Below, one piece after another: positions 24,897-56,323 of a stretch of 64,000 nt of DNA; within the stretch, counting starts at the first letter, position 1; every line of letters begins with the position of its first letter. The stretch is taken from NCBI RefSeq assembly GCF_001552595.1, contig NZ_BCRM01000007.1:62001-126000 (forward strand). Direction: 5' to 3'. Origin of the DNA: Rhodococcus erythropolis NBRC 15567 (GTDB lineage: Bacteria > Actinomycetota > Actinomycetes > Mycobacteriales > Mycobacteriaceae). The translations under genes were made by a program, and so were the position numbers. The notes beneath the pieces were generated by a model, which ran no database searches, was not told the origin of the DNA, and was given only the letters and a program-made list of their open reading frames with translations.

Positions 24897-24940
24897 CTGT
24901 GCGCCTTTATCAACCCCCCGCGGTTGATAAAGGCGCACAG
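24897..24940. repeat. 44-nt hairpin repeat, copy 1 (after fixB)
   Basis: CTGTGCGCCTTTATCAACC and GGTTGATAAAGGCGCACAG form a perfect 19-bp stem around CCCCGC. AAAGCA (24884-24889) and TGCTTT (24941-24946) add an outer stem. Compared with copies 2 and 3 it carries C/G instead of T/A at one stem pair, a compensatory change. It probably acts as a terminator. Confidence 0.9.
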
Positions 24941-25018
24941 TGCTTTATTCACCCGGCCTGCATCGGCATGTCACTTCGTCGATACCGAGACGCCGTTCGC
25001 GCTCGATAAACCTTGCGC

Positions 25019-25855
25019 ATGACAATTACGTCAGTCCTTCGCTCCGCGAGTGACAATCTCGGCCGTGAGGTCGCCCAGCCGAGATATTCCCTGATCGTCT
25101 CCTCCGACCGCGAGCATCGTGTCGCAGCGCAGCGCCTTCGATACCGAGTGTTCGCCTCCGAGCCAGGCTTCTCCCTCCCGGCCTCGGCCGGGGTCTTCGA
25201 ACTCGACGCCGACGGCTTCGACGAATTCTGTGATCATCTACTCGTTCGTGACAACATCACCGAGGAGTACGTCGGCTGCTACCGAATGCTGCCGCCGGAT
25301 TCCGCGGCGGCGGCGGGTGGGTATTACACCGCAACCGAATTCGACATCTCCGCGCTCGATCCGGTGGCGAACAGGATCGTCGAAATGGGTCGCGCTTGCG
25401 TCGATCCCGCGCACCGCACCGGATCCGTCCTGAGCCTGATGTGGTCGGGCATTCTGCACTACCTCGAACTGACCGGATACGAATGGGTGATGGGCTGCGT
25501 CTCCGTGCCCATCCTCCCGAACCCCGATTCAATTGCCGGCGCCGATGTCCGCGGCGTCCGTGACTTCGTGATGAACAAACACGCCAGTCCGGGGTCGCGG
25601 CGGGTGACGCCACGAAACCCGGTGGTCCTCGGCGGTCTGACGCTCGACGAGATTGCCGCACCGGAACGCGTGACGATGCCGCCGTTGCTCCGTGGCTACT
25701 TGCGGATGGGCGCGATGATCTGCGGGGAACCTGCTCACGATCCCGAGTTCGGTGTGGCCGATTTTGTTGCGCTGCAAGGCCTTCACTCCGCCAACAAGCG
25801 CTATCTGGAACGGCTGCGATCGGCGGCCGCCGCACACGAATCGGGGATCGGCTGA
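25019..25855 (+). CDS. GNAT-fold N-acyltransferase (OlsB/hemolysin-like)
   Basis: This protein has 278 residues from ATG 25019; a TTG at 25013 is also possible. It contains an Acetyltransf_5-type domain: SLIVSSDREHRVAAQRLRYR, EEYVGCYRMLPPDSAAAAGG, NRIVEMGRACVDPAHRTGSV and GYEWVMGCVSVPILPNPDSI. This is the family of OlsB, which transfers 3-hydroxyacyl chains from ACP to ornithine. It overlaps the following PlsC-type acyltransferase at TGATG, the same pairing as OlsB-OlsA. An aminolipid product is inferred, and the amino acid acceptor is not known. Confidence 0.85.
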   Translation: MTITSVLRSASDNLGREVAQPRYSLIVSSDREHRVAAQRLRYRVFASEPGFSLPASAGVFELDADGFDEFCDHLLVRDNITEEYVGCYRMLPPDSAAAAGGYYTATEFDISALDPVANRIVEMGRACVDPAHRTGSVLSLMWSGILHYLELTGYEWVMGCVSVPILPNPDSIAGADVRGVRDFVMNKHASPGSRRVTPRNPVVLGGLTLDEIAAPERVTMPPLLRGYLRMGAMICGEPAHDPEFGVADFVALQGLHSANKRYLERLRSAAAAHESGIG

Positions 25856-26754
25856 TGACCGCGACGGTGCCGTACTGGGTGCCGACGAGCCCCTGCGGCG
25901 ACGGGTGCCTACCTACGGACGCACCCGGTGTGTCGAGTATCACCGTGATGGCCCGCGGGATCATGGTCGGCGCCGCACTGGTGACTGCGCCGGTGCTCTC
26001 GGCCGGCTGGCTGCTCCCGCGCACCTGGCGTACGGAGATGCAACGCGGATACTCGCGCGCGTTGCTGCGTTGTCTGGGAATGAAGCTCACGGTCGACGAT
26101 CAGCGGTTGGGGCGCGCCGAACCGGCGGGCGTGATGGTTGTCGCCGGTCACGTGTCGTGGACCGACGTCCTCGTCGCGAGTGCCGTTGCCCCGGCCAACT
26201 TCGTCGCCCGTGCCGACCTGCTCGACTGGGCAGTGCTCGGTGGTCTCGCGCGCCGGATGCGCGTAGTGCCCATCGATCGCGCCCGACTGCGTGAACTTCC
26301 CGGAACCGTCGACGTCGTTCGCGAACGACTTCAGCGTGGTGTCCGCGTAATGGTGTTTCCCGAGGGAACGACCTGGTGCGGGCGGGCGTACGGAGGTTTT
26401 CGCCCGGCAATGTTCCAAGCTGCCGTCGACGCCGAATGCCCGGTTCAGCCGATGGCGATCCGCTACGAGAACGCCGACGGTTCCCTGTGCACCGGACCGT
26501 GCTTTGTCGGCACCGAAACTATCGGTCAGTCCATCCGTCGGATCCTGCGTCAGAAGAACGTCGAGGTGAAGGTCAGGCTGGCTCCGCTCGAGGAGGCAGG
26601 GGAGTGTCGAGTCGACCTCGCGCAGCGATGCGAGAGAGCCGTACGTGGCGTCGAAACCATCGATTTGGCAGCTCACGACATCTTCGACCCCGCACCGGAA
26701 CTCGTGACACAAGCCGTGGGACAGATCGATACCTCCCCGGCAATGACCGCTTAG
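25855..26754 (+). CDS. 1-acyl-glycerol-3-phosphate acyltransferase (PlsC/OlsA-like)
   Basis: This 299-residue membrane-associated acyltransferase has a hydrophobic segment at [20 protein letters not shown], the catalytic HX4D in [17 protein letters not shown], and the second motif [20 protein letters not shown]. Such enzymes acylate lysophosphatidate or lyso-aminolipids. The start ATG overlaps the stop of the GNAT gene (TGATG), so the two are coupled. Position corresponds to Rv3026c. With the GNAT partner, synthesis of a diacylated amino-acid lipid is a reasonable alternative to phosphatidate synthesis. Confidence 0.88.
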
Positions 26755-26806
26755 CCTGCTGAGCGAGGCTGGGCGAACTCTCGTGCTGGGCTATCCTTGT
26801 CAAGCC

Positions 26807-28036
26807 ATGACTCTGCCTGCACCCAGTGCCCACGCCGGATTTCCGGTGTACCTCGATCATGCCGCCACGACTCCGATGTCGGCAGCCGCTATCGAGGCGA
26901 TGACCGATACCTTCAAAACCGTGGGCAACGCGTCCTCGCTTCACGGTTCCGGCCGTGCGGCCCGGCGCCGCGTCGAGGAGTCGCGGGAATCGATCGCTGC
27001 CAGCCTGGGTGCGCGGCCTTCGGAGGTCATCTTCACCTCCGGCGGAACCGAGAGCGACAATCTCGCGGTCAAGGGCATCTACTGGGCTCGCCGTGACGCC
27101 GATCCGCGACGCACTCGCATCCTGGCCAGCTCCGTCGAGCATCATGCGGTGCTCGACGCCGTCGAGTGGCTCGAGCAGCACGAGGGTGCGCGCGTGACGT
27201 GGTTGCCGGTCGACGAGAACGGTGTCGTCGACCCGCGGACCCTGCGCGACGAGCTTTCCGTTCACGCCGACGAGGTAGCACTCGTTACGGTGATGTGGGC
27301 CAACAACGAGGTCGGCTCCATCATGCCGATCGTGGAGTTGGCGGAGATTTCGGCTGAGTTCGAGATTCCGATGCACAGCGACGCGGTCCAGGCCGTTGCG
27401 CAATTGCCGGTCGATTTCGCGGCGAGCAAGTTGTCCGCGCTGAGCATCGCGGCGCACAAGTTCGGTGGTCCGCACGGCGTCGGCGCACTGCTGCTCGGAC
27501 GCCAGGTTCCGTGTGTGCCGCTCCTTCACGGCGGCGGACACGAACGTGATCTGCGTTCGGGCACTCCGGATACTGCGGGCGTTGTCGGGATGGCTGCGGC
27601 GCTGCGCGCAAACGTCGAGAACTTCGATTCCAGCACAAGGGAATTGGCGCAGTTGCGTGACCGTTTGATCGACGGAGTCCTGGAGATTCTTCCCGAGTCG
27701 GTGCTCAACGGCCCGACCGGATCCGATCGGCTTCCCGGTAACGCGCACTTCACCTTCCCCGGCTGCGAGGGCGATTCGTTGCTGATGCTGCTCGACGCCG
27801 CCGGTATCGAATGTTCCACCGGTTCGGCGTGCACCGCCGGTGTGGCCAGAGCCAGCCATGTCTTGATCGCGATGGGCGTCGAATCGCCCGTCGCGCGTGG
27901 CTCACTGAGATTTTCGCTCGGACATACGTCGAGTGTCACCGATGTGGACGCGCTGATCGCTGCGCTTCCACAAGTAGTAGAGCGCGCTCGGGCCGCCGGT
28001 CTTGCCGGTGCCGGTTCGCGTGGAGGGGATCGCTGA
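26807..28036 (+). CDS. Cysteine desulfurase (IscS/NifS family)
   Basis: This 409-residue PLP enzyme removes sulfur from cysteine. It begins [20 protein letters not shown]. The PLP-lysine is in [20 protein letters not shown] and the persulfide-forming Cys is in [20 protein letters not shown], on a long class-I-type loop. The start ATG 26807 fits the family better than an in-frame GTG 24 nt upstream. It overlaps mnmA by 1 nt (TGATG), which points to supply of sulfur for tRNA 2-thiouridine, in addition to Fe-S or other uses. Confidence 0.94.
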
Positions 28037-29148
28037 TGCGAGTACTCGCAGCCATGAGCGGAGGTGTCGACTCCGCTGTCGCCGCCGCCCGCGCAGTTGC
28101 CGCCGGACATGACGTCGTCGGCGTTCATCTTGCGCTGTCCACGGCGCCGGGTGCATTGCGGACGGGTTCGCGTGGATGCTGCTCGAAGGAAGATGCCGGC
28201 GACGCCAGGCGCGCTGCCGACGTCCTCGGAATACCCTTCTACGTCTGGGATTTCGCCGATCGCTTCAAGGAAGACGTGATCGACGACTTCGTGGCGTCGT
28301 ACGCAGCGGGTGAGACCCCCAATCCGTGTCTGCGGTGCAACGAGAAGATCAAGTTCACCGCACTGGCCGACCGTGCGGTCGCTCTCGGCTTCGATGCCGT
28401 GGCGACCGGTCATTACGCGCGCCTCGAAGACGGCGTCCTACGCCGGGCGGTCGACGCGGACAAGGACCAGTCGTATGTCCTCGGTGTGCTGACGGCTGAT
28501 CAGCTTTCGCGAGCGATGTTCCCGATCGGTGACACACCGAAAGAACAGATCCGTGAGGAAGCCGCCGAGCGCGGTCTGGCTGTGGCGAACAAGCCTGACA
28601 GCCATGACATCTGCTTCATCCCGACCGGCGATACCCGAGCATTCCTGGGTGCGCGCATCGGCGTTCGTCCGGGAAGCGTCGTCGATGCCGATTCGGGTGA
28701 GGTCCTCGCTGCACACGACGGCGTACACGGCTTCACGATCGGACAGCGCAAGGGGCTCGGCGTCGAAGGTCCCGCAGGTGACGGCCGTCCGCGGTACGTG
28801 ACCGCGATCGAGCCCGAAACCGGAACGGTGCGAGTCGGTTCGGCCAAGAATCTCGACGTCTGGGCCATCTCGGCCCAGCGCGCGATCTGGACCTCGGGCC
28901 AGGCGCCGGAGGGCCCCGTCGAGTGCATGGTGCAGGTTCGTGCGCACGGCGGACTGGCGCAGGCCGTTGCGGAGGCCGTCGACGACGGTACTTCGGGCGG
29001 CGGCATCTCCATTTCGTTGCGCGAACCACTGACCGGCGTCGCGAAGGGCCAGGCCGTCGTGCTGTATCGCCCCGACAGCGAACTGGGCGACCAGGTTCTC
29101 GGCAGTGGCACCATCTCCGGCACCGAATCCGAGCCGAACACACTGTGA
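28036..29148 (+). CDS. mnmA: tRNA-specific 2-thiouridylase MnmA
   Basis: The enzyme (370 residues) makes 2-thiouridine at position 34 of tRNA Lys, Glu and Gln. The PP-loop ATP site is [18 protein letters not shown], the catalytic cysteine is in [16 protein letters not shown], and the second, persulfide-bearing Cys is in [18 protein letters not shown]. The C-terminal beta-barrel follows. It is coupled to the cysteine desulfurase upstream and overlaps the next start by GTGA. Confidence 0.96.
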
Positions 29149-30167
29149 CACAGCAGGTTTCCATCGGTGGCCTCGTCACCGGAATCGGATCCTGGCCGGG
29201 CACGGACGCCCGCGAAAGCGCCGCAACCATCCTTGGCGAACTGGGCGGTTTCCCACACCTGGTGGAGTTGCCGAGCCGCGGTCTCGGCGCTGACATGGTC
29301 GGCCGAGCAGGCGCCATTCTGGTCGACATCAACCTCGACGCCTCGACCCGCGCCTATCGCGTCGTGCCTCGGCGGGGCAACGTCGCGAAGCGAGCCGAGG
29401 ACTTCCTGAATCAGGATCTCGACGCACTCGAGGAAGCCTGGGAATCGGCCCGTCTGGTCGGCGGAGACCACGTCGTCAAGCTCCAAGCTGCCGGCCCGCT
29501 GACACTCGGCGCCGAGATCGAGGTTGCAAACGGTTCGCGAGTTCTCGTCGACCGTGGGGCACTCCGGGACATCGCCGAATCACTTGGTGAGGGGCTCGCG
29601 CGCCACGCCGCCGAGGTCACTCGTCGTACCGGTGCCCGAGTGGTGATCCAATTGGACGAGCCGCAGATCGCGGCAGTGCTGGCCGGTTCACTACCCGGGC
29701 GCACCAAGATGGAGAGCGTTCCGGCTCTCCCGGAACCCGAGGCGCTCGCCGTTCTCGACTCGACGATCAGCGGTTGCGGACTGCCCACAATCGTCCACAG
29801 TTGCGGCGCCGACATGCCGTGGGATCTGCTGAGGCGAAGCCAGGCGTTCGGCGTGAGCTTCGACATGTCGCTCATCGGCTCGCGTGATCTGGACGGCATC
29901 GGCCAGTTGTTCGACGCCGGCAAGGAATTGGCGCTCGGTCTGGTTCCTTCCGCCCCGCCGGAAAAGCCGGTGACGTGGAAAGAGTGCGCGATGCCCGCCG
30001 TCACCCTGATCGATCGTCTCGGCTTCTCGCGTGAACTCCTGCAGAACCAGGTCGCGGTAACCCCAAGCTGTGGTCTTGCGGGTGCGAGCCTCGAGTGGAG
30101 TCGAGCCGCCCTTCGGCTGTGCACAGACGTCGGCAAGGCATTGGTGGACGATCCGTCGGCGTTCTGA
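29145..30167 (+). CDS. MetE-like cobalamin-independent methionine synthase C-terminal-domain protein
   Basis: This 340-residue protein corresponds to only the catalytic (C-terminal) half of MetE. It begins [20 protein letters not shown]. Zinc-ligand-like residues are seen at [14 protein letters not shown] (His, Cys) and [14 protein letters not shown] (Cys), with [16 protein letters not shown] between. Short MetE-like proteins are common in actinobacteria (Rv3015c type) and their methyl donor is unproven. It starts at GTG 29145, overlapping the mnmA stop by 4 nt, so it lies in the sulfur-related operon. Confidence 0.88.
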
Positions 30168-30210
30168 TGTGTTGCGTTCTGACGTGGAGTCGTGTGGTGT
30201 GTCGGTGTGA

Positions 30211-32331
<2,121 letters not shown>

Positions 32332-32378
32332 CTTTGTCCGATTTCTGAGATTGGTGTGCTGGGTGCGATAGTGACGCC

Positions 32379-32867
32379 ATGATCGAGATTCGTGAAGTTC
32401 TACCGGCTGAGTTCGAGACCGTCGGGGAACTGACTGTGCAGTCGTACGTGGGTGGCGGATTTGTCGCCGGCGGATCGCCGTACGCGGAGCGCCTGCGAGA
32501 CACCGCAACTCGGGTGGAGCAGGGGCGGGTGCTGGTTGCCGTTCTCGGCGAAGAGGTCGTGGGTTCTTTGACGATCGCCGAACCCGGCACGCCCTTCGCG
32601 GATGTTGCGCAGAAGGGCGAACTCGAGTTCCGCATGCTCGCGGTCTCGCCGCAGGCTCGGGGATCGGGCGCCGGAACCGCATTGGTTCGCGCAGTGATCG
32701 CCGAAGCCTACGACCGAGGCGATCACTCGGTGGTCATCTCGACGCAGCCCGAGATGGTCGATGCTCGTCGTATCTACGACCGCAACGGGTTCGTCCCCGA
32801 TCCGGAGCGCGCGTGGGAGCCGATTCGCGGTATGGAGCTGACGGTCATGGTTCGCGGTCTGGCCTGA
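32379..32867 (+). CDS. GNAT family N-acetyltransferase
   Basis: This 162-residue single-domain acetyltransferase has the acetyl-CoA binding region FRMLAVSPQARGSGAGTALV (Q/RxxGxG/A) followed by VRAVIAEAYDRGDHSVVIST and an AARRIYDRNGFVPDP-like ending. The substrate cannot be inferred. It is convergent with the ACT-domain gene, 13 bp away. Confidence 0.9.
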   Translation: MIEIREVLPAEFETVGELTVQSYVGGGFVAGGSPYAERLRDTATRVEQGRVLVAVLGEEVVGSLTIAEPGTPFADVAQKGELEFRMLAVSPQARGSGAGTALVRAVIAEAYDRGDHSVVISTQPEMVDARRIYDRNGFVPDPERAWEPIRGMELTVMVRGLA

Positions 32868-32880
32868 TTACCCAGCCTGG

Positions 32881-33531
32881 TCAGCCCAGCACTGTCGCGA
32901 CGATTCCGGCGAGATAGCCGAGGCGGGCTATCTCCGAAGGGCGAAATTCGGGTCCTCCGGGACGACCGAGCATGAGGACGCGATTGCCGGAGCCGAGCGG
33001 TGCGGCAGCGAGGCTGGTGTTCATCTCTCGCCAGACGTCCGGAACCCAGTCGGCCTCGCCGTCGAGGGCGGTGGGCTTGTCCAGTGGCATCCACGGAATG
33101 TCGGTGGCATGGGTTTCCGGCGCGCCGGCGCTACCGACGACGCGGTACGCACCGTGCTTGCCGATGTCCGCGACGACGCACCAGCCGACTCGCAGTACAC
33201 GCGGCGCGCCGTCGACGAGGACCTGTAGTCGATCGTTTCGGGCTGTCGCAACGGAATCGATGAGTTCGAGCTCACGATGGGTGTCGAGAATCCCGGCGTA
33301 GGGGCGGATCGAATCGACCAGCACGTCGGGCAGATGCTCGGCAGCGGTGATCAAGGTGTCGGGCAGTGCGCCCGGTTCGACGTCGACCACGAGGTCGTCG
33401 ATGGCAAAACCGTCGCCTCGCTCCACGACGTCGAGGGAGAGGATGTCTGCGCCCACGGATCCGAGGGCTACGGCGAGCGCGCCGAGGCTGCCGGGTCGGT
33501 CGGGCAGTTGGACGCGAAGCAGGTACGACAC
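32881..33531 (-). CDS. ACT domain-containing regulatory protein
   Basis: I start at GTG 33529-33531 with GAAAGG upstream (216 residues). The longer frame to 33609 adds 26 residues without likeness. The first ~75 residues are an ACT domain: YLLRVQLPDRPGSLGALAVA, SVGADILSLDVVERGDGFAI. The rest resembles a degenerate GAF-like sensor (RVGWCVVADIGKHGAYRVVG). It is the counterpart of Rv3013. It probably binds an amino acid; the target is unknown. It is divergent from gatC. Confidence 0.85.
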   Translation of the reverse strand: MSYLLRVQLPDRPGSLGALAVALGSVGADILSLDVVERGDGFAIDDLVVDVEPGALPDTLITAAEHLPDVLVDSIRPYAGILDTHRELELIDSVATARNDRLQVLVDGAPRVLRVGWCVVADIGKHGAYRVVGSAGAPETHATDIPWMPLDKPTALDGEADWVPDVWREMNTSLAAAPLGSGNRVLMLGRPGGPEFRPSEIARLGYLAGIVATVLG

Positions 33532-33809
33532 GTGCGTGCCTTTCGCTGATCGGTTCTCGCCCGGATCACGTCGACCCGGGCCACACCCATCTTTGCACTT
33601 GCTCAGCACGCGTTGGTGGGCGCCGCGGCGGGGTCACACCGGGTGCACATGCTTGTCACACGAGCGAAACACGAGGTGGATTCGACGTGGCGGTGGACAC
33701 AGTAGGCGTGCGTACCGGTCGACACAGCAGGCGTGCTTACAGGTCTGTCGCGGCGAGGAACTAGGCTGGACCGGCAATGTTCACGTCCTCTTCCGAAAGG
33801 GGCCCCGCG

Positions 33810-34109
33810 GTGCCTGCCATCTCCCGTGACGAGGTCGCGCACCTCGCGCGGCTGTCCAGACTCGCCCTGTCCGATGCCGAACTCGACGAGTTCGCCGGTC
33901 AGTTGGATTCGATTCTCAACCACGTCAAGGTGGTCACCGAGGTTGCGGCCGACGACGTCCCGCCCATGGCGAACCCCAATGCCGTCACCAACGTGACGCG
34001 CCCCGACGTGATCGTGCCCGGGTTGACCCCCGAGCAGGCATTGTCCGGAGCACCCGCAGTCGAACAGGATCGCTTTGCGGTTCCGCAGATCCTTGGAGAG
34101 GGCGAATGA
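33810..34109 (+). CDS. gatC: Asp-tRNA(Asn)/Glu-tRNA(Gln) amidotransferase subunit C
   Basis: This 99-residue small subunit stabilises GatA in the GatCAB complex. The start is GTG 33810; the in-frame ATG 33777 would add 11 residues. Motifs: [20 protein letters not shown] and [19 protein letters not shown], then the [13 protein letters not shown] belt. It overlaps gatA by ATGA. Confidence 0.93.
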
Positions 34110-35584
34110 CCGATCTGACCACGCTGGACGCCGCTGAGCTGGCCGGCAAGATCCACTCGCGTGAGGTGTCCTCGGTAGAGGTCACGCAGGCGCATCTCGA
34201 CCGCATCGCTGCCGTCGACACCGAGTACCACGCCTTCCTGCACGTTGCCGGTGAACAGGCTCTCGAAGCCGCCGCAGCAGTGGACAACTCGCTCGCAGGC
34301 GGAAACGAACCCGCTTCGGCACTCGCCGGAGTTCCGATTGCGTTGAAGGACATCTTCACCACGACGGACATGCCGACCACCTGTGCGTCGAAGATTCTCG
34401 AAGGCTGGGTTGCGCCGTACGACGCGACCCTGACGAGCAAGCTTCGCGCTGCGGGCATCCCGATCCTCGGCAAGACGAACCTCGACGAATTTGCGATGGG
34501 CTCCTCCACGGAGAACTCCGCATTCGGTCCGACGCGTAACCCGTGGGATGTCACCCGCATCCCCGGCGGATCCGGTGGTGGTAGCGCTGCAGCGCTCGCG
34601 TCCCGTCAGGCCCCGTTGGCCATCGGCACCGACACCGGCGGGTCGATCCGTCAGCCCGCTGCGGTCACCGCGACGGTCGGAACCAAGCCGACGTACGGAA
34701 CTGTCTCACGCTTCGGGCTCGTCGCGTGCGCCTCCTCTCTCGATCAGGGTGGCCCCTGTGGTCGCACCGTGCTCGACACCGCTCTGCTGCACGAGGTCAT
34801 CGCCGGGCACGATCCGCGTGACTCCACGTCCATCGACGCCCCCGTGCGTCCGGTGGTCGCTGCGGCACGGGAGGGTGCAGCCGGCGACCTGCGCGGCGTC
34901 AAGGTCGGTGTGGTCAAGGAACTTCACTCCGACAGCTACCAGCCCGGTGTCATCGCTTCCTTCGACGCTGCTGTCGAGCAACTCAAGGCTTTGGGCGCCG
35001 AAGTTGTCGAGGTTTCGTGCCCGAGCTTCGAGCACGCGCTCGCGTCGTACTACCTGGTGCTGCCCAGTGAGGTCTCGTCCAACCTGGCCCGCTTCGACGC
35101 CATGCGCTACGGACTGCGTGTCGACGAAGGCAACATGAGTGCCGACCAGGTCATGGCGGCAACCCGCGCCGCCGGTTTCGGCCCGGAGGTCAAGCGCCGC
35201 ATCATGATCGGTACCTACGCACTGTCCTCGGGCTACTACGACGCCTACTACGGTTCGGCGCTCAAGGTTCGTACCCTCATCGCACGCGATTTCGACAAGG
35301 CCTACGAGAAGGTAGACGTACTGGTCTCGCCGACCAGCCCGTTCACGCCGTGGAAGTTGGGGGAGAAGGTCGGCGATCCGTTGGCCATGTACCTCTCCGA
35401 CCTGTGCACGCTGCCGACCAACCTGGCCGGACACTGCGCGATGTCGGTGCCATCGGGTCTGTCCGCGGACGACAACCTGCCGGTGGGCTTGCAGATCATG
35501 GCGCCCGCCATGGCTGACGAGCGCCTCTACCGTGTCGGTGCCGCCTACGAAGCTGCTCGCGGCCCGATTGCAACTGCAGTCTGA
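34106..35584 (+). CDS. gatA: Asp-tRNA(Asn)/Glu-tRNA(Gln) amidotransferase subunit A
   Basis: This 492-residue amidase supplies ammonia from glutamine to GatB. The Ser-cisSer-Lys triad is visible: the Lys in [12 protein letters not shown], and the two Ser in [19 protein letters not shown] and [19 protein letters not shown]. Translationally coupled to gatC. gatB lies 5.4 kb downstream, separated by an inserted block and pfkA. A copy of the 44-nt hairpin follows. Confidence 0.97.
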
Positions 35585-35592
35585 CCTGTTTG

Positions 35593-35636
35593 CTGTGCGC
35601 CTTTATTAACCCCCCGCGGTTAATAAAGGCGCACAG
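35593..35636. repeat. 44-nt hairpin repeat, copy 2 (between gatA and the hydrolase gene)
   Basis: CTGTGCGCCTTTATTAACC and GGTTAATAAAGGCGCACAG form a perfect 19-bp stem around CCCCGC; TG/CA extend it to 35591-35638. It lies between convergent genes, 8 nt after gatA and 6 nt before the hydrolase stop, fitting a bidirectional terminator. Confidence 0.9.
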
Positions 35637-35641
35637 CAGTT

Positions 35642-37030
35642 TCAGGAGCAAGTCCCCAAAGCTGTTCCCTGATCGGTTCCGTAGCGGTGGCCGTGACCGG
35701 CGGGTACACCGAGCGAACCGAGCATGTCGACGGTGGTCTGCAAGAACGTGACGCCCGGGATCCACTGCGGGATCGGGCCGTCCTGCACGGCACGGCTCAG
35801 ATCCGGCTTCTGCGTCGCGAGGGCGGGGGACCACCACACCACTGGGTCGGACGTGTTCGCTAGGACGGTTGCGCCGTCCGTCCGTGTCGCGCCGGCCGGG
35901 GGACCGGCCCACAACACGTCGCACGGGACGGTGGCACTGCTCTCGGTCAGTGCGGCGCTGCCGCCGACGGCGCCGAGGCTCTGTCCGTAGAGGAACAGGT
36001 CCGGTCGCTCTTCGGCAGGCATCGCGGCAATGTGGCTTCCGACAGCTGTGAACAGGGCGGTGGCTGATTCTTCGGCGTCGTCGCGGCTGAACAGGAATGT
36101 CGCCCAACTGGGTGCGTCGGAGTATTGCTGCCCGACTATCGCGACGTCTCCGCCGAACCGTTGCTCGATACCGTCGACTGCGTGGGTGTCGATCCACCCC
36201 GAGCCGGTCGGAACGGCCACCACGACGCTGTTGCGGGCGAAGCCGCCGACGCGATCGAGTTCACTCACGGCGAGAGCGGCACGCGATGCGGTATCGGGTG
36301 CGGAATCCACACCGGCGTAGACGCGCACCGAGTCTTCACCTGCAGCGATGAATTTGCGTCCCTCCGCGCCCATCGAGGTCCACGAGATGAGCGATTCGGA
36401 GCTGCCTGTCGCAGAGGCCGAAAGTGGCTGTGTCAGAGCGGTGTCGATGTACGCGTTGGACTTGTCGAACGAATCGGCGAGGCCGTTCCAGACGGCGGGA
36501 CCGACGACCAACTGCACGCCGAGGACTCCCATGACCAGTGCGCCCACGCTCCGCGCGAAACCCATCCACCGCAGCGCCTTCGAAAGTCCGACCCCGAGGC
36601 CCCAGAGTGCAAGGGCGGTCAGCGAGGCAATGCACCCCGCCTCCGCCCAGTGGATCAGCCCGGCAGGCGGTGCGCCCATCGCTGCTCGCAGCGAGTTCTG
36701 CCAACCGGCGGCGGCGAACATCGCAACTGCGGTGCCGGCAGTCGACAACCCGAACGCGGTGATGCGCCAATGACGTTCGTCGAATCGGGCCTTGGCCCGG
36801 TCGGGGACGAGCCGACGGGCTACCGCGGAGAACGCCCACATCGCCAGTAGCCCGACCGCGACGAGCAGACCGCTGAATACCCCTTGGAGTACGGCTGATC
36901 TCGGCAGGAGTCCGGGAGCTAGCGAGATGGCGGACATCGCTGCCACGGCGACGCTCGTGGACACCCGGGGGAGTGCGAGCGCCCCGACTCGGGCGAGAAC
37001 GGGGGTCCGTGACGCATTCAGAACGCTCAT
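35642..37030 (-). CDS. Membrane alpha/beta hydrolase (Abhydrolase_9 type)
   Basis: I start at ATG 37028-37030 (462 residues), which overlaps the upstream stop by ATGA. A frame running to 37234 adds no plausible sequence. Four or five hydrophobic spans occupy the first ~200 residues (AISLAPGLLPRSAVLQGVFS, GVFSGLLVAVGLLAMWAFSA). A hydrolase domain follows with the nucleophile elbow LFLYGQSLGAVGGSAAL (GxSxG), ANTSDPVVWWSPAL and a terminal GHGHRYG histidine. This two-part layout (membrane N-domain plus hydrolase) is a known actinobacterial family of unknown substrate, probably a lipid esterase at the membrane. It is coupled to the phospholipase-like gene. Confidence 0.88.
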   Translation of the reverse strand: MSVLNASRTPVLARVGALALPRVSTSVAVAAMSAISLAPGLLPRSAVLQGVFSGLLVAVGLLAMWAFSAVARRLVPDRAKARFDERHWRITAFGLSTAGTAVAMFAAAGWQNSLRAAMGAPPAGLIHWAEAGCIASLTALALWGLGVGLSKALRWMGFARSVGALVMGVLGVQLVVGPAVWNGLADSFDKSNAYIDTALTQPLSASATGSSESLISWTSMGAEGRKFIAAGEDSVRVYAGVDSAPDTASRAALAVSELDRVGGFARNSVVVAVPTGSGWIDTHAVDGIEQRFGGDVAIVGQQYSDAPSWATFLFSRDDAEESATALFTAVGSHIAAMPAEERPDLFLYGQSLGAVGGSAALTESSATVPCDVLWAGPPAGATRTDGATVLANTSDPVVWWSPALATQKPDLSRAVQDGPIPQWIPGVTFLQTTVDMLGSLGVPAGHGHRYGTDQGTALGTCS

Positions 37031-37701
37031 GCTGCAATCGCTTTCGGGGAGAAGGAGAACTCGTTCGACGGATCGAGGCGCCGCGATCGCATCAGGGTGA
37101 AGCCGAGGGCGGAAACTGCCAGAACTCCGGCCGTGCCGTAACCGAACCCCGATTCCGCGACCGGAGTCAGATAGCTTTGGCGCCAAGAGTTTCCGTTCAC
37201 CGCTGTGACGGCGACATCGGCCATCGCGAAGCAATACCCACGTGAGAGAAAGGACGTGCGGTCTTCACAGGCCGCATGCATTCGCTCGTCGAGCTGACCG
37301 TCGAGGACCTGGCGGGCCCACGGCCCCAGTTCCGTTCCGTGCGAATGCGCGTAGCGGAGTAGGTCGTACCCGAGATCGTGTGCTTTGCAGGCCGAGTCGA
37401 ATTCGTCGGGAAGCGGAATCGGTGACGAGCAGTCGCCGTGGGGGTTGGCGAGGTATCCGTCGAAGACGGTAGGCGTGTAGCCGGCAAATGCGGCGAAATC
37501 CGACGGGATGGTGGTCGCAGCATCAGAGGCATCCGCGGTAGTCACAGTGGCGATCGCCCTGGATGCGTTCGAATTCTCGGTGCGCGGCGGCTCGGCTCCG
37601 CTCGCTCCGGCAGTGACGGTGATCGCTGCCGTTGCCGCCAGCGCCAGGGCAGCCCAGGTGCCGGCGCTTCGAGAGAGGTCTTTCACTCGTGTGATCCGCA
37701 T
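37027..37701 (-). CDS. Secreted phospholipase A2-like protein
   Basis: Read from ATG 37699-37701 it has 224 residues; starts at GTG 37710 or TTG 37725 are possible. A signal peptide (RSAGTWAALALAATAAITVT) precedes the mature part. FDSACKAHDLGYDLLRYAHS carries the C..HD.GYD catalytic motif of prokaryotic phospholipase A2 (His-Asp dyad). Further cysteines (GDCSSP, HAACEDRTS, RGYCFAM) could form disulfides. A C-terminal hydrophobic segment (YGTAGVLAVSALGFTLMRSR) followed by Arg may anchor it. Its stop overlaps the start of the membrane hydrolase, so the pair forms a lipid-hydrolase operon. Confidence 0.82.
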   Translation of the reverse strand: MRITRVKDLSRSAGTWAALALAATAAITVTAGASGAEPPRTENSNASRAIATVTTADASDAATTIPSDFAAFAGYTPTVFDGYLANPHGDCSSPIPLPDEFDSACKAHDLGYDLLRYAHSHGTELGPWARQVLDGQLDERMHAACEDRTSFLSRGYCFAMADVAVTAVNGNSWRQSYLTPVAESGFGYGTAGVLAVSALGFTLMRSRRLDPSNEFSFSPKAIAA

Positions 37702-45878: not shown

Positions 45879-45888
45879 CTGTGAAGGA

Positions 45889-47764: not shown

Positions 47765-48149
47765 ATGAGTCTCACAGTTGCGGTACGTCCGTACCAGAAT
47801 TACGTATATGTGTATCCGCGCAAGACGGCTGACAGGCCACTGCACCCACTACGACGCAGTGGCGTTCGGTGGTGGTACTCCGACGTCTCTCGACGCCTCC
47901 GGACTCGACCGACTGTGCGACATCGCGGAACTCCTTATGGGCGCTGACCTTTCATCCGTTCTCGTGTGAAAGAAGTCCCTGGACGCTGCGCCGGCTCAGG
48001 TCGCCATGCGCAAGTTCCTACGTGTCGGCGTGGTTGTCGAAGGTGCTGCCGACGATGCGTACCAAACCGACGCGATGATCGGATTGGGTTGTGGTGCATG
48101 CTCGTACAACACGGATGAAGATTTTCCGGAGGAACTGGCGTGGATCTGA
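47765..48149 (+). pseudogene. Decayed radical-SAM gene (STM4012/HemN-like), heavily deleted and frameshifted
   Basis: Three pieces of one protein family survive in order. First, ATG 47765 opens SLTVAVRPYQNYVYVYPRKT, like the start of STM4012-type radical-SAM proteins. Then, in another frame from about 47856, comes AVAFGGGTPTSLDASGLDRL, the GGGTP motif of HemN-like enzymes, ended by TGA at 47967-47969. In the same frame after that stop comes DAMIGLGCGACSYNTDEDF and a final TGA at 48147-48149. The CX3CX2C iron-sulfur motif expected between the first two pieces is deleted, and most of the ~400-residue body is missing. It cannot make an active enzyme. Family assignment is by motif memory. Confidence 0.7.
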
Positions 48150-48175
48150 TCCCGATTCATCTCGCACGCTGACAG

Positions 48176-48211
48176 AAAAGATCCCCGGCCGAAAGCGGCC
48201 GAGGATCTTTT
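48176..48211 (-). terminator. Terminator after ilvD
   Basis: AAAAGATCC...GGCC (from 48176) pairs with GGCC...GGATCTTTT (to 48211) around GAAAGC, 18 nt beyond the ilvD stop on the minus strand, with A/T flanks giving a T tail in either direction. Confidence 0.85.
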
Positions 48212-48229
48212 GTCCGTTCGTGGCAGAAC

Positions 48230-50071: not shown

Positions 50072-50143
50072 GGGCGTGTTCCTTATGTGATCGTTGCTGG
50101 TCCACTCAAATAGAAGCGAGGGCCTTTCAACGCTACTCGCGTG

Positions 50144-50686
50144 CTACGGGCGCTTCTCTTCGGGCTGGTCCTGTGAGTTCTCGGCGACCTCGGATTCTGC
50201 TTCTGCTTCTGCAGCTGCTTCTTCCTCTTCGGCTTCCTTGGCGGCGAAGGCTTCTGCCGCCGATGCATAGGGATCAGTGATGCGGCCGCCGCTGGCGATC
50301 GCGATCTCGGGAAGCCTGACGAAGCTGACCGCAGGCAGGGTCACCTCGGTTCCGTCGGTGAGTTCCGCGCGCGCCCAGCTGCGCTTCGGGAAGCGGAAAC
50401 CCTTGACATCGTCCCAGGCGAGGGTGCGCTTGGAGAACGTCGAGCGGACCTCGAGGCCGTCAGGGCTGACGGTGGTGCGCAGTCGCGCGACGAGATACAC
50501 GGCGATGATCGGAAGGATCAGCAACCAGCTGAAGGCGACGGGCCACCCGAAGATCGGGAAGCTGACCGCGAACAGGAGGAACGCGCACGCCATGTAAGCG
50601 AGCTGCGAAATGCGGATGACGTGCCGAAGTGGTTTCGGCGTGTGGGATGATTGAGCCGGTGGCACGGGCTGCTGCGAAGTTGACAC
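50144..50686 (-). CDS. PH-domain membrane protein (Cfp6-like)
   Basis: This 180-residue protein has two hydrophobic spans (SQLAYMACAFLLFAVSFPIF; VAFSWLLILPIIAVYLVARL). A bacterial PH domain follows (RTTVSPDGLEVRSTFSKRTL, AWDDVKGFRFPKRSWARAEL, TDGTEVTLPAVSFVRLPEIA). The tail is a ~35-residue Glu/Ala-rich segment (EEEEAAAEAEAESEVAENSQ), low complexity. It is the counterpart of M. tuberculosis low-molecular-weight antigen 6 (Rv3004), next to ilvB as there. Molecular function is unknown. Confidence 0.9.
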   Translation of the reverse strand: MSTSQQPVPPAQSSHTPKPLRHVIRISQLAYMACAFLLFAVSFPIFGWPVAFSWLLILPIIAVYLVARLRTTVSPDGLEVRSTFSKRTLAWDDVKGFRFPKRSWARAELTDGTEVTLPAVSFVRLPEIAIASGGRITDPYASAAEAFAAKEAEEEEAAAEAEAESEVAENSQDQPEEKRP

Positions 50687-50747
50687 CTCTACATCTTCGC
50701 ATTGCAGCCGATGTATCTCAGATTCTGGGACGGTCGACTCACCAAGT

Positions 50748-50776
50748 TTGCCGTTCGCGACTAGCGCCTCTACTGT
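50748..50776 (+). promoter_or_regulatory. Promoter of the ilvBNC leader
   Basis: A -35 element TTGCCG (50748-50753) and a -10 element TACTGT (50771-50776) are 17 bp apart. The expected start, about 7 nt downstream, falls at the GTG of the leader peptide (50784), so the leader mRNA would be leaderless. Confidence 0.65.
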
Positions 50777-50783
50777 CGAGTGC

Positions 50784-50831
50784 GTGAAACAGAATGAGTT
50801 GCTCGTAATCGGCCGGCGCGTCGTCGCCTGA
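50784..50831 (+). CDS. ilvB leader peptide (branched-chain amino acid attenuator)
   Basis: A 15-codon frame, GTG to TGA, encodes MKQNELLVIGRRVVA. Six of 15 residues are Leu, Val or Ile, in a cluster (LLVI, VV) as expected for a peptide that senses charged branched-chain tRNAs. No Shine-Dalgarno is present and the promoter places the transcript start at the GTG. A hairpin (GGCGCGTCGT 50815-50824 with ACGACGCGCC 50856-50865) overlaps the Val codons, and a terminator follows. Similar leaders precede ilvBNC in Corynebacterium. Confidence 0.8.
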   Translation: MKQNELLVIGRRVVA

Positions 50832-50899
50832 GTCGATTTTTCAACTCACCAGATAACGACGCGCCACCCTCGCTCAGCAGATGCTGACGGGGGTTTTTT
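50815..50899 (+). terminator. ilvBNC attenuator (alternative hairpins and terminator)
   Basis: The terminator stem pairs ACCCTCG-TCAGCA (50866-50879) with TGCTGA-CGGGGGT (50882-50894), then six T to 50899. Upstream, 50815-50824 pairs with 50856-50865 right up to the terminator foot. TGAGTCG (about 50829-50835) can instead pair with CGCTCA (50871-50876) and would open the terminator. Ribosome stalling in the leader peptide would select between these forms. Confidence 0.75.
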
Positions 50900-50931
50900 G
50901 TTGCCCGGAGCCAGAATCAGAGGATTTCCCA

Positions 50932-52872
50932 GTGAGCGCACCAACAGCACGGCCTCAACCCACGCCGCGCAAGTCAGGGACACCGAGCCCGACAACCGCG
51001 GCTGCCGCAACCCAGACGGCCAACCGTCGCCAGCTCCCGCCTGAGCGGGTAACCGGCGCGCAGTCTGTGGTTCGAGCCCTCGAAGAGCTCGAGGTCGACA
51101 CGGTATTCGGCATTCCCGGCGGTGCCGTGCTCCCGGTTTACGACCCACTCTTCGATTCGGTCAAGGTCCGCCACGTGCTCGTGCGCCACGAGCAGGGTGC
51201 AGGCCACGCTGCCACCGGTTACGCCCAGGCGACCGGCAAGGTCGGCGTCTGCATGGCTACCTCGGGTCCCGGTGCGACCAACCTGGTCACGCCACTGGCC
51301 GACGCGCAGATGGACTCCGTTCCGATCGTCGCGATCACCGGACAGGTGGCGCGCTCGCTGATCGGTACCGACGGCTTCCAGGAAGCCGACATCTCAGGCA
51401 TCACGATGCCGGTCACCAAGCACAACTTCCTGATCACCGACGCGATCGACATCCCGCGCATCATGGCCGAAGCCTTCTACCTCGCGGCCAGCGGTCGCCC
51501 CGGCGCCGTCCTGGTCGATATCCCCAAGGACATCCTGCAGTCGCAGACCACGTTCTCGTGGCCGCCGGAGATGCGTCTGCCGGGCTACCGCCCGGTCACC
51601 AAGCCGCACGGCAAGCAGGTTCGTGAAGCTGCACGTCTGATCGCCGACGCCAAGTCGCCGGTTCTGTACGTCGGTGGCGGCGTCATCAAGTCGGACTCCT
51701 CGCCGGAGCTGCTCGAATTGGCAGAGCTGACCGGTATCCCCGTCGTCACCACGCTGATGGCCCGCGGCGCGTTCCCGGACAGCCACGACCTCAACTGCGG
51801 TATGCCGGGAATGCACGGCACCGTTGCCGCAGTTGCCGCTCTGCAGCGCAGCGATCTCCTGATCACCCTCGGCGCGCGTTTCGACGACCGCGTCACCGGC
51901 CAGCTGAATTCCTTCGCGCCCGACGCCAAGGTCATCCACGCCGACATCGATCCGGCAGAGATCGGCAAGAACCGCTACGCCGACGTCCCGATCGTGGGCG
52001 ACTGCAAAGAGGTCATCACCGAACTCATCGAGGCTATCCGTGCCGACATGGCCACGGGCACCACGTTCGAACTCTCGGAATGGTGGGCGTACCTGAACGA
52101 CATCCGTCGTACCTACCCGCTGAGCTACGACCGTCCCACCGACGGTCAGCTGAGCCCGGAGTACGTCATCCAGACCGTCGGCAAGCTCGCCGGACCGGAT
52201 GCCATCTACTGCGCTGGCGTCGGCCAGCACCAGATGTGGGCCGCGCAGTTCGTCGGTTACGAGAAGCCGCGCACGTGGCTCAACTCGGGCGGGCTCGGCA
52301 CCATGGGGTACGCGGTTCCCGCAGCCATGGGTGCCAAGATGGGCATGCCCGACACCGAGGTGTGGGCGATCGACGGCGACGGCTGCTTCCAGATGACCAA
52401 TCAGGAACTCGCAACCTGCGCACTCGAAGGTATCCCGATCAAGGTTGCCCTCATCAACAACGGCAACCTCGGCATGGTGCGTCAGTGGCAGACACTCTTC
52501 TACGAAGAGCGCTACTCCAACACCAACCTCGGAACGCACGGCGCCATCCGCATCCCGGACTTCGTCAAGCTCGCAGAAGCATTGGGCTGCCACGGAATTC
52601 GTGTCGAGCGTGAAGAAGACGTCGAAGCTGCGATCCGTGAGGCGCAGTCCATCAACGACAAGCCTGTCGTGATCGACTTCATCGTCACCGCTGACGCACA
52701 GGTGTGGCCGATGGTCGCTGCCGGAACGAGCAACGACGAAATCATGGCGGCCCGGGGCATCCGGCCGCTGTTCGACGACGACGAGGCAGTTGCCGAGCCC
52801 GCCGTCATCCACGAAGCCATGTCACGCGAGCAAGCCGGACCCGCCGCGGGCACAGGGGAGGATCAGAAGTGA
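50932..52872 (+). CDS. ilvB: Acetolactate synthase, large (catalytic) subunit
   Basis: The true start is GTG 50932 after AGAGGA; an ATG at 50881 lies inside the attenuator terminator and is rejected. 646 residues. The enzyme condenses pyruvate (or pyruvate and 2-ketobutyrate) with ThDP and FAD. The N-terminal 35 residues are Pro/Thr-rich. The catalytic Glu is in [20 protein letters not shown]. The FAD domain is mid-protein. The ThDP/Mg site is [20 protein letters not shown] with NN in [13 protein letters not shown]. It overlaps ilvN by GTGA. Confidence 0.97.
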
Positions 52873-53372
52873 GCACCAGTCACACCCTCAGTGTTCTCGT
52901 CGAGGACAAGCCAGGCGTGCTGGCCCGCGTCTCCGCACTTTTCTCCCGCCGCGGATTCAACATCGAATCCCTTGCGGTGGGCGGAACCGAGATCCCCGAG
53001 ATCTCACGTATGACCATCGTCGTCACGGTCGACGAGTTCCCTCTCGAGCAGGTGACGAAGCAGCTCAACAAGCTGATCAACGTCATCAAGATCGTCGAGC
53101 AGGACGGTGAAGCATCCGTCGCTCGCGAGCTCGTGCTCATCAAGGTGCGCGCAGATGCAAGCGTGCGCACGCAGGTCATCGAAACGGTGAACCTGTTCCG
53201 CGCCAAGGTGATCGACGTCTCCCCGGAGTCCGTCACCATCGAGGCGACCGGTACTCGGTCCAAGCTGGATGCACTGCTGCGGATGCTTGATCCGTACGGT
53301 ATCCGGGAGATCGTTCAGTCCGGGGTCGTGGCAGTCGGTCGAGGGCCGAAGTCGATCACGGCCACCCGCTAG
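52869..53372 (+). CDS. ilvN: Acetolactate synthase, small (regulatory) subunit
   Basis: This 167-residue subunit confers valine feedback. The N-terminal ACT domain reads [20 protein letters not shown] and [20 protein letters not shown]; the C-terminal part reads [20 protein letters not shown] and [17 protein letters not shown]. The GTG start overlaps the ilvB stop, so the subunits are translationally coupled. Confidence 0.96.
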
Positions 53373-53389
53373 TACTTTTAGACACGTAA

Positions 53390-54427
<1,038 letters not shown>

Positions 54428-54466
54428 TTCGTAGTTTCACGCTCCACGTCTCCACTGGCCTGATGT

Positions 54467-54495
54467 CGCGCCGGTTCAATTACGTTGAACCAGCG
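54467..54495. terminator. Hairpin after ilvC
   Basis: GCGCCGGTTCAA pairs with TTGAACCAGCGC around a short loop, about 40 nt after the ilvC stop. No T tail, so termination is only probable. A second imperfect GC-rich repeat (GCCGGAGTC / GGCTGAGTCCGG) follows. Confidence 0.55.
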
Positions 54496-54623
54496 CGGCA
54501 TTGGGCCGGAGTCGTTTTCCGGGCCGGCTGAGTCCGGATTCATATTCCATCGAGAATTCGCCCGCGAAAGTGTCCACTATGTGGTATCGCCTACCGCGTT
54601 GTGGATTCGAAGTGAGCGCGCAC

Positions 54624-54647
54624 TAAACTGTCGGTGGTTAAACCACC
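54624..54647 (+). promoter_or_regulatory. serA promoter -10 and adjoining inverted repeat
   Basis: A candidate -10 (TAAACT, 54624-54629) is followed at 54633-54647 by GGTGGTT-A-AACCACC, a perfect 7-bp inverted repeat placed at the expected transcript start. Either a repressor operator or a 5' mRNA hairpin upstream of serA. Confidence 0.5.
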
Positions 54648-54677
54648 TTCACACCCACCTAATCAGGGAGTTTGCAC

Positions 54678-56270
54678 GTGAGCCAGCCTGGCCGTCCCGT
54701 TGTTCTGATCGCCGACAAGCTCGCGCCGTCCACAGTCGAGGCGCTCGGTGACGGTGTGGAGGTGCGTTGGGTCGACGGACCCGACCGCCCGGCGCTGCTC
54801 GCCGCGGTACCCGAGGCCGACGCGATTCTCGTCCGTTCCGCCACCACCGTCGACGCCGAGGTTCTGGCCGCAGGCACCAAGCTGAAGATCATCGGCCGCG
54901 CCGGTGTCGGCCTGGACAACGTCGAGATCCCCGCAGCCACCGAGCGCGGCGTGATGGTCGTCAATGCACCGACCTCCAACATCCACTCGGCAGCCGAGCA
55001 CGCAGTTGCTCTGCTCATGTCGACCGCTCGCCAGATTCCCGCAGCAGACAAGACCCTGCGTGAGAACACCTGGAAGCGAAGCAAGTTCAACGGCGTCGAG
55101 ATCCTCGGCAAGACCGTCGGCGTTGTCGGACTCGGCCGCATCGGCCAGCTGTTCGCGCAGCGTCTCGCCGCGTTCGAAACCACCATCATCGCGTACGACC
55201 CCTACTTGCCCGCAGCTCGCGCCGCGCAGCTCGGCATCGAACTGGTCACCATCGACGAGCTCGTCGAGCGCGCCGACTTCATCTCCGTGCACCTGCCCAA
55301 GACCAAGGAAACGGCCGGCCTGATCAACGCCGAGCGTCTCGCCAAGGCCAAGGACGGCGTCATCATCGTCAACGCCGCCCGCGGTGGTCTGATCGACGAA
55401 GACGCGCTCTACGACGCACTGGTCTCCGGCAAGGTCCGCGGCGCCGGTCTCGACGTGTTCAGCACCGAGCCGTGCACCGATTCCAAGCTCTTCGAGCTCG
55501 ACAACGTCGTCGTCACCCCGCACCTCGGAGCATCGACGTCCGAGGCTCAGGACCGCGCAGGCATCGACGTGGCGAAGAGTGTTCTCCTCGCTCTGGCGGG
55601 CGAATTCGTTCCCGAGGCTGTCAACGTCTCCGGCGGCCCCGTCGGAGAAGAAGTTGCTCCGTGGCTCGAGCTGGTCCGCAAGCTCGGTCTCCTCGCTGCG
55701 ACGTTGTCGCCCGAAGCTGTGCAGACCGTGCAGGTTGTCGCCACCGGCGAGCTGTCTGCCGAAACCGTCGACATCCTCGGCCTGGCCGCACTGCGCGGCG
55801 TGTTCTCCGCCAGCAGCGACGAGGCCGTCACGTTCGTCAACGCTCCGGCACTGGCCGAGCAGCGCGGCGTGACCGTATCGGTCGAGAAGCACTCCGAGGC
55901 TCTTGCTCACCGCAGCGCGGTCGAGGTTCGCGCAGTTGCCGCGGACGGCACGGTCACGTCGGTCACGGGCGCACTCACCGGTCTGCAGCAGGTCGAGAAG
56001 ATCGTCAACATCAACGGACGCAGCTTCGACCTGCGCGCCGAGGGTCACAACATCGTCGTTCACTACAGCGATCGCCCGGGCGTTCTCGGTGTCCTCGGCA
56101 CCGTTCTCGGCAACGCGGGCGTGGACATCCTCGCCGCAGCACTGAGCCAGGATGCCGAAGGCGAAGGCGCAACGGTCATCTTGCGCGTCGATCGCGTCGT
56201 CGGAGACGCCGAGGTCGAGGCTATCGTCTCGCAGCTCGACGCTCGCGTCGCCCAGGTCGACCTTTCCTGA
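54678..56270 (+). CDS. serA: D-3-phosphoglycerate dehydrogenase
   Basis: This 530-residue long-type PGDH catalyses the first step of serine synthesis. GTG 54678 follows CAGGGAG. Domains: substrate-binding, then NAD-binding (VGVVGLGRIGQLFAQRLAAF), catalytic residues in NAARGGLIDEDALYDALVSG (Arg), DVFSTEPCTDS (Glu) and VVTPHLGASTSEAQDRAG (His). The ~140-residue ASB domain and C-terminal ACT (VHYSDRPGVLGVLGTVLGNA) give serine control, as in the mycobacterial enzyme. The 44-nt hairpin repeat lies just downstream, before leuB. Confidence 0.97.
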   Translation: MSQPGRPVVLIADKLAPSTVEALGDGVEVRWVDGPDRPALLAAVPEADAILVRSATTVDAEVLAAGTKLKIIGRAGVGLDNVEIPAATERGVMVVNAPTSNIHSAAEHAVALLMSTARQIPAADKTLRENTWKRSKFNGVEILGKTVGVVGLGRIGQLFAQRLAAFETTIIAYDPYLPAARAAQLGIELVTIDELVERADFISVHLPKTKETAGLINAERLAKAKDGVIIVNAARGGLIDEDALYDALVSGKVRGAGLDVFSTEPCTDSKLFELDNVVVTPHLGASTSEAQDRAGIDVAKSVLLALAGEFVPEAVNVSGGPVGEEVAPWLELVRKLGLLAATLSPEAVQTVQVVATGELSAETVDILGLAALRGVFSASSDEAVTFVNAPALAEQRGVTVSVEKHSEALAHRSAVEVRAVAADGTVTSVTGALTGLQQVEKIVNINGRSFDLRAEGHNIVVHYSDRPGVLGVLGTVLGNAGVDILAAALSQDAEGEGATVILRVDRVVGDAEVEAIVSQLDARVAQVDLS

Positions 56271-56279
56271 TTGTTTTTG

Positions 56280-56323
56280 CTGTGCGCCTTTATTAACCGC
56301 CCGCGGTTAATAAAGGCGCACAG
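56280..56323. repeat. 44-nt hairpin repeat, copy 3 (between serA and leuB)
   Basis: CTGTGCGCCTTTATTAACCGC and GCGGTTAATAAAGGCGCACAG pair over 21 bp around CC. It differs from copy 2 by one loop-side base (G for C), which extends the stem. A TTTTT run precedes it. It lies 9 nt after serA and 21 nt before leuB, on the same strand, so it should separate the two transcripts. Confidence 0.9.

Follow-up and report, generated by a model that had tools for sequence, protein, structure and literature searches.

The 64,000-nt stretch of the Rhodococcus erythropolis NBRC 15567 genome considered here, hereafter the window, contains three nearly identical 44-nt hairpins located shortly after the fixB, gatA and serA stop codons, respectively (Table 1). 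They belong to a real family of gene-end hairpins, spread over the genome and conserved in the clade, in which the foot is constrained and one length preferred and whose current mobility is not supported. Direct reading and the inverted-repeat listing of the window (I3, I4 and I6) place the three elements where a preliminary description of this DNA had located them and, as claimed there, each consists of a perfect 19-bp stem closed by a 6-nt loop. The same description had pointed out a paired change and a stem-lengthening base, and both were found on reading: copy 1 carries C/G in place of the T/A of copies 2 and 3, on both arms, and copy 3 has a G at the first loop position able to pair with the C at the last. 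The gap between stop codon and hairpin is 13 nt for fixB, 8 nt for gatA and 9 nt for serA, within the range of 8–13 nt already reported. Copy 2 is also located 5 nt from a second stop codon, and its pairing reaches outward to 35591-35638; copy 3 is followed by a co-directional gene that is presumably leuB, and hairpins exist at the orthologous place in the serA loci of relatives.

Table 1. Hairpins of the window and their neighbouring genes
Feature	Position	Strand	40-nt core (GTGCGC-N28-GCGCAC)	Remarks
Hairpin copy 1, type A (CTGTGCGCCTTTATCAACC-CCCCGC-arm)	24897..24940	+	24899-24938	genome copy L009; both arms with C/G for T/A
Hairpin copy 2, type A	35593..35636	+	35595-35634	genome copy L010; between convergent genes
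Hairpin copy 3, type A	56280..56323	+	56282-56321	genome copy L011; between serA and leuB
fixB (electron transfer flavoprotein alpha)	23927..24883	+		upstream of copy 1; ETF and ETF_alpha domains
gatA	34106..35584	+		upstream of copy 2; putative name from the preliminary description; orthologues compared
Convergent gene	35642..37234	-		stop codon 5 nt past copy 2
serA	54672..56270	+		upstream of copy 3; putative name from the preliminary description
leuB (putative name)	56345..57358	+		downstream of copy 3, co-directional

The folding z-scores of copies 1, 2 and 3 are -8.5, -10.2 and -8.1, respectively, and for each copy none of 200 dinucleotide shuffles was as stable. In the window the exact arm GTGCGCCTTTA is limited to the six arms of the three hairpins, and the other hairpins look unrelated in sequence by eye, in agreement with the inverted-repeat listing and with what had been noted earlier. 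A search with 4227 Rfam models between positions 24500 and 57000 gave two sub-threshold matches elsewhere and none at the three hairpins, so that a known RNA family was ruled out for these copies; a simple terminator scan of positions 24000-36500, a range that ends before copy 3, listed copy 1 and not copy 2.

The source genome, a draft of 6.59 Mb in 67 contigs, contains 44 distinct copies of this sequence, here called type A, a number that is a lower bound. It results from merging a 42-mer search with up to 3 mismatches (41 forward and 42 reverse places, 0 in a backwards-read control) and a strict gapped pattern (42 places). The consensus is TGCTGTGCGCCTTTATTAACC-N-CC(C/G)GC-GGTTAATAAAGGCGCACAGCA; among 43 copies that share one length, both the 5' arm GTGCGCCTTTA and the 3' foot GGCGCAC are identical throughout (43/43), an identity fixed in large part by the search patterns, the motif-free test being that on the neighbour-anchored copies described below. 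The dispersed repeat family suggested by the preliminary description is therefore genuine, with at least 44 members and not the three of the window alone. Gene ends, predicted with an own codon-usage gene caller, were assigned within -30 to +60 nt of each hairpin: 21 copies are located between convergent gene ends and 17 behind one gene, for a total of 38 of 44 in the terminator-like position that had been proposed. In 35 of these 38 at least one end is 4–18 nt from the GTGCGC core; in the remaining three, predicted open reading frames enter the hairpin (two copies) or the distance is 49 nt (one copy). A total of 58 gene ends flank the copies, and 14 of the 20 upstream proteins scanned were assigned a family, including electron transfer flavoprotein alpha, GMP synthase, dihydroorotate dehydrogenase, thiolase, and MFS and MMPL transporters; one protein is menaquinone-reductase-like with a score under the curated cut-off. 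The 20 proteins look unrelated and a regulon was discarded on this ground. Two type-A copies are only 1149 bp apart (G000:C1:957968, L033, and 959117, L028), with equal spacing in genome G017, and the first of them has no nearby gene end according to the same caller.

The constraint acting on the hairpins was evaluated on pairing and on the foot. Among 33 distinct type-A 40-mers compared with 500 shuffles, 97.1% of cells pair versus 94.6 in the shuffled sets, and two-sided changed cells number 18 versus a shuffled mean of 6.4, a value that none of the 500 shuffles attained; the pairs with two-sided change are 4, a number reached by 24 of the 500, and the relatedness of the sequences inflates all these paired-change counts. 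A second permutation of paired change agrees and slid controls are far lower, so that the compensatory change noticed in copy 1 extends to the family. The foot was tested on 22 copies that had been located by their neighbouring gene, independently of the motif (serA 10, gatA 6, fixB 6): the foot TGTGCGCC/GGCGCACA is changed in 0 of 352 positions and the inner arms in 30 of 440, a difference whose p value of 2.5e-8 is indicative only, since the genomes are related. In the copies tested the foot is, to judge from these sequences, fixed, and the inner stem can vary provided that the change affects both arms. The foot-to-foot length is nearly always 40 nt within the clade.

Type A is the largest type of a wider class of hairpins, GTGCGC-N28-GCGCAC. 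With the exact 28-nt spacing this pattern occurs 74 times in the source genome versus 2 in a reversed control, and with a variable gap between the feet it is found at 136 places versus 29 in the control. Type B corresponds to GTGCGC-N6-GGTAG-N6-CTACC-N6-GCGCAC (15 by that pattern in the source genome) and type C, such as GTGCGCGGTTAGGGAGTCC..., was seen in the same genome; the three types differ in the inner stem and have foot and length in common. At least 15 exact-length copies are present in 22 of 28 genomes of the genus, the controls ranging from 0 to 5 across all 28, and the weakest of the 22 are G022 (17 vs control 5) and G026 (15 vs control 0). In 800 kb of one contig, a strong hairpin separates 34 of 114 convergent gene pairs with a gap of up to 400 nt; on reading, 7 of them have the form GTGCGC...GCGCAC, a further one resembles type C with GTGAGC, and the other 26 seem unrelated. 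Type B hairpins are 13–14 nt from the gene end in 9 of 30 cases. Between stop codon and foot, some of them show a further small hairpin, e.g., GGGGC-TTCG-GCCCC, whose second half, by eye, apparently coincides with the foot of the main hairpin at L156, L158, L096, L107 and other loci; the two structures seem to overlap and would thus exclude each other. Some of these small hairpins are mirrored, again by eye, on the other side with a convergent stop codon.

The exact-arm pattern of type A is present in 10 of 28 genus genomes and in 0 of 33 others, the type-A clade being that of Rhodococcus sp. P-2 and R. qingshengii. The gene serA, present in 27 of the 28 genomes, is followed by type A in 10/10 clade genomes; among the 17 other genomes, 13 have a hairpin with the GTGCGC foot and a different inner stem (e.g., CACTGTGCGCGTGCCACGAC...) and 4 are without that foot, as is the second serA copy of G012. 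In a set of 80 named serA loci a GTGCGC hairpin was found in nine, five of the P-2/qingshengii kind and the others from R. wratislaviensis, R. opacus, R. tibetensis and R. koreensis, and it was not found in the Rhodococcoides, Gordonia and Tsukamurella serA loci examined. Most Prescottella- and R. ruber-like serA-leuB gaps (L171-L195) contain another recurrent hairpin, GGTGGCCGCGACC...GGTCGCGGCCACC. Type A follows fixB in all six clade genomes whose fetched stretch includes fixB and in 0/11 other-clade genomes, which by eye have a different GC hairpin instead; it follows gatA in 6/6 clade genomes and in 0/12 other-clade genomes. Taken together, the three loci indicate that the gene-end position can be old and the sequence type clade-specific; since type A is lacking at gatA and fixB outside the clade, these copies are lineage-specific and arose in or near the clade ancestor.

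The fate of single copies was followed in G008, a clade member with a serA identity of 96%, from which 20 of 24 counted non-serA type-A-like copies were sampled; they were found by the motif TGTGCGC...GCGCACA, which copies with lost or changed feet would escape. At least one flank of 18 of the 20 is directly beside a type-A copy in the source genome, with a flank identity of 69–95%, and the other two were unmatched in the copy-centred loci, the window and 800 kb of the source genome. The comparison of orthologous and empty sites proposed in the preliminary description has a divided outcome, as most sites sampled in G008 are shared with the source genome and the gatA site lacks the hairpin in the 12 genomes of other clades. 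The agreement of the inner 28 nt is 0.86 for orthologue pairs (15 of the 18, of equal length), 0.93 for paralogues of the source genome, 0.82 for G008 paralogues and 0.85 for non-orthologous cross pairs, the better orientation being taken for paralogues and cross pairs. The copies of the source genome are in fact more uniform than expected and nearly homogenised. Agreement between orthologues exceeds that of shuffled pairs (p 0.004, inner part; 0.026, loop), which argues for vertical inheritance, and the best reading is that the copies are inherited vertically at fixed gene ends and would not be jumping at present.

A wider survey of 251 genomes employed the pattern TGTGCGC-N10..38-GCGCACA. 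Counts far higher than the control were obtained in several genomes: 29 places versus 1 in the control in G142, whose serA locus is identical to that of Rhodococcus triatomae, 40 versus 1 in G174 (nearest serA relatives Rhodococcus sp. OK519, R. hoagii and Prescottella), 16 versus 0 in G092 (Antrihabitans being nearest) and 19 versus 0 in G215. Many of the 251 genomes have a few matches and the control is sometimes higher (1 vs 32 in G212). In f16, a distant family within the same order, single genera have up to 18 matches; in a sample of 20 palindromic-looking places, 16 are no more than 25 nt from a gene end predicted by a caller trained on Rhodococcus, and the foot-to-foot distance is 45–47 nt, a length that is partly the result of choice as shorter coding-like places were omitted. 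These hairpins (L310-L329, from G186, G238, G232, G202 and G244) lie behind gene ends and their inner stems vary between copies; they may be due either to shared descent or to convergence.

The placement at gene ends argues for a role at transcript 3' ends in both directions. With a probability of about 0.6, the family would represent bidirectional U-less 3'-end hairpins, active in termination and/or as exonuclease block, with sequence-constrained feet and vertical inheritance; a terminator or end-cap function appears likely. The RNA behind the stop codon would fold into a stable stem of 19–21 bp at which RNA polymerase would pause and stop; alternatively, Rho could end the RNA further downstream and trimming would then proceed up to the stem, which would cap the transcript. 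Owing to the palindromic sequence, the same 44 bp could serve both genes of a convergent pair. A GC-rich stable hairpin close behind the stop codon is found here as in canonical Rho-independent terminators, whose U-tract is lacking; being less than 50 nt from the stop codon and without U-tract, the hairpins would be placed with the "I-shaped" gene-end hairpins of actinobacteria. The shared foot exceeds the needs of I-shaped or Rho-trimmed ends and for this reason a reader is proposed: either a protein or the polymerase together with associated factors would read the foot, which is the likeliest reason for its fixity. In the same way the invariant foot favours the suggestion, already present in the preliminary description, that the site may be bound by a protein or processed as RNA. 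From placement and sequence, termination or end protection combined with recognition of the foot by a factor would be the likeliest role. It is doubtful, though conceivable, that this extends to a sequence-specific gene-end system in which a factor of Rhodococcus and its relatives would read GTGCGC...GCGCAC hairpins or palindromes at a preferred spacing, generating factor-dependent 3' ends; the spacing would be 40 nt in Rhodococcus, Prescottella-like and Antrihabitans-like genomes and 45–47 nt in the loci examined in the distant family. If such a system were real, the inner-stem shifts that run through whole lineages (types A, B and C, and one pair differing in 9–10 of 15 G008 orthologue pairs) could be a trace of co-evolution with the factor.

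Several observations weigh against 3'-end hairpins with a constrained foot as the explanation. In the source genome the T content after the stem is 43/170 on the sense and 38/170 on the antisense side (p 0.61); tails in which 5 or more of 10 letters are T number 12/69 versus 3/69 in a pooled set including orthologues, and this sense-side excess was rejected since it is gone in the own-genome set and the pooled set is inflated by repeated orthologues. U-less mycobacterial termination is in dispute according to a review (PMC12288462), among whose cited titles one has the mycobacterial polymerase requiring a U-tract and another has the U-tract dispensable. A hairpin terminator by itself needs no fixed foot, so that the explanation depends on the proposed reader. 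The length is not strictly fixed, as one type-A copy of the source genome is 39 nt long, several G008 copies measure 39 or 41 nt and, outside the clade, the GTGCGC hairpins behind serA are 35–40 nt from foot to foot. Moreover, 6 of the 44 copies are without a nearby gene end, as predicted by the own caller, and 6 of the 28 genus genomes (G002, G007, G009, G011, G013 and G027) have 1–4 exact-length copies, near control. Finally, the sense-strand mismatches of copies with one sense strand, a set that holds orthologues, are 18 G-U, 20 A-C and 12 others; a purely sense-RNA function would predict a G-U skew, and its lack keeps alive the alternative of a site acting as DNA.

In this alternative, a dimeric protein would bind the 40-bp palindrome, with GTGCGC half-sites 28 bp apart, between gene ends, and the site would work as a transcription roadblock or as a supercoiling or nucleoid site, the RNA hairpin being incidental. 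Besides the absence of a preference for G-U over A-C, it would account for the fixed foot with a preferred exact spacing, for the symmetric use in convergent pairs and for three inner types with a common foot and length; a pair of half-sites, however, would not need a mid-stem that keeps pairing while its sequence changes, the spacing at serA varies in other clades and the placement is tied to gene 3' ends (35/44 own copies 4–18 nt away), and on balance it is unlikely. Decidedly less credit is given to the view that ordinary hairpins have arms kept perfect by quasi-palindrome repair, i.e., template switching, and are homogenised between copies without selection on the sequence. The higher agreement of own paralogues than of G008 orthologues is what concerted evolution would produce, and core positions 11 and 30, which pair with each other, show differences in 10 and 9 of the 15 orthologue pairs; nevertheless, repair of arms explains neither an unchanged foot nor the same GTGCGC foot on different inner stems at serA, and the advantage of orthologues over shuffled pairs indicates that wholesale conversion is not rampant. 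This view is very improbable.

The preliminary description had also considered a small mobile palindromic element, similar to a miniature inverted-repeat transposable element (MITE) or to a repetitive extragenic palindromic (REP) sequence, that would have spread in the clade ancestor and been recruited at gene ends. Near-identical copies, the restriction of type A to one clade, the lack of such a hairpin at gatA and fixB in all 12 and 11 other-clade genomes, respectively, and the equal length of types B and C are as expected for it. REP elements with RAYT/Y1 transposases are dispersed extragenic palindromes behind genes; the Rhodococcus hairpins differ from them, as Y1_Tnp (PF01797) was not found in the source genome by a search aimed at Y1/REP only, which was positive in 5 of 14 control genomes, and as 18/20 sampled sites are orthologous. 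REP/RAYT was ruled out on the missing transposase. A query of only 48 nt with an E-value limit of 1e-5 matched one of 72,556 plasmid records and none of 50,697 phages; copies outside the chromosome are rare by this short query, which speaks against a phage or plasmid element. Since 38/44 copies are at gene ends and the GTGCGC hairpin at serA predates the clade, a mobile element is improbable and this part of the proposal is not supported. An uptake sequence was likewise ruled out, as no unpaired arms occur in the window or in 800 kb, where the arm is found 13 times, always within the seven type-A hairpins present there.

The proposed bidirectional 3'-end hairpins have counterparts among known systems. 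The TRIT motif of Mycobacterium tuberculosis, from the RNIE work (Gardner 2011), is reportedly structured, conserved and enriched downstream of genes, and by this description it resembles the Rhodococcus hairpins in being actinobacterial, structured and behind gene ends; a "TRIT model" has been applied in a further study. The I-shaped actinobacterial terminators are similar in the strong hairpin less than 50 nt from the stop codon without U-tract but, as far as the available part of the review goes, they are defined by structure, whereas dozens of Rhodococcus copies have a foot sequence in common (PMC12288462). Mapping in Streptomyces clavuligerus gave many 3' ends with strong structure and little U, which are interpreted as I-shaped terminators or as trimmed Rho-terminated RNA; its bidirectional transcript 3'-end positions (Bi-TEPs) are alike in the long stems ending transcripts on both strands and differ in having mapped 3' ends and, in the portion of the article at hand, no description of a shared stem sequence (PMC8269248). 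The uptake-sequence terminators of Haemophilus influenzae and Actinobacillus also use a repeated sequence as the stem of a gene-end hairpin (PMC5217627); the Rhodococcus arm, in contrast, has no unpaired copies in the window and 800 kb. Also similar are the repeated spaced motif pairs of A. ebreus and B. japonicum, dozens of palindromes, many of them convergent or near gene 3' ends, termination having been suggested for the latter; sequences and organisms are other, and the part of that article available describes neither conservation in relatives nor paired change, its authors having called a repeated terminator sequence unexpected (PMC5217627). No paper was recognised as describing the GTGCGC hairpin family in a literature search outside which most subscription papers fall, and absence from print is not claimed.

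Terminators are usually viewed as structures and not as sequences; here dozens of gene-end hairpins have a common foot, which is unchanged in the 22 tested copies while orthologous flanks diverged to 69–95% identity. A defined set of sites with natural variants offers a test of U-less termination and of reading by a factor, and the hairpins are candidate two-way terminators for Rhodococcus engineering.

A single hairpin of the family is interrupted on plasmid RQCS_2 of R. qingshengii CS98 (NZ_AP023173.1; L335, 1501-1530 and about 2823-2853), where an IS481-family element is located inside the hairpin behind acs; the 15-bp apex TAACCGCCCGCGGTT is present on both sides of the element, as if the apex were the insertion target.

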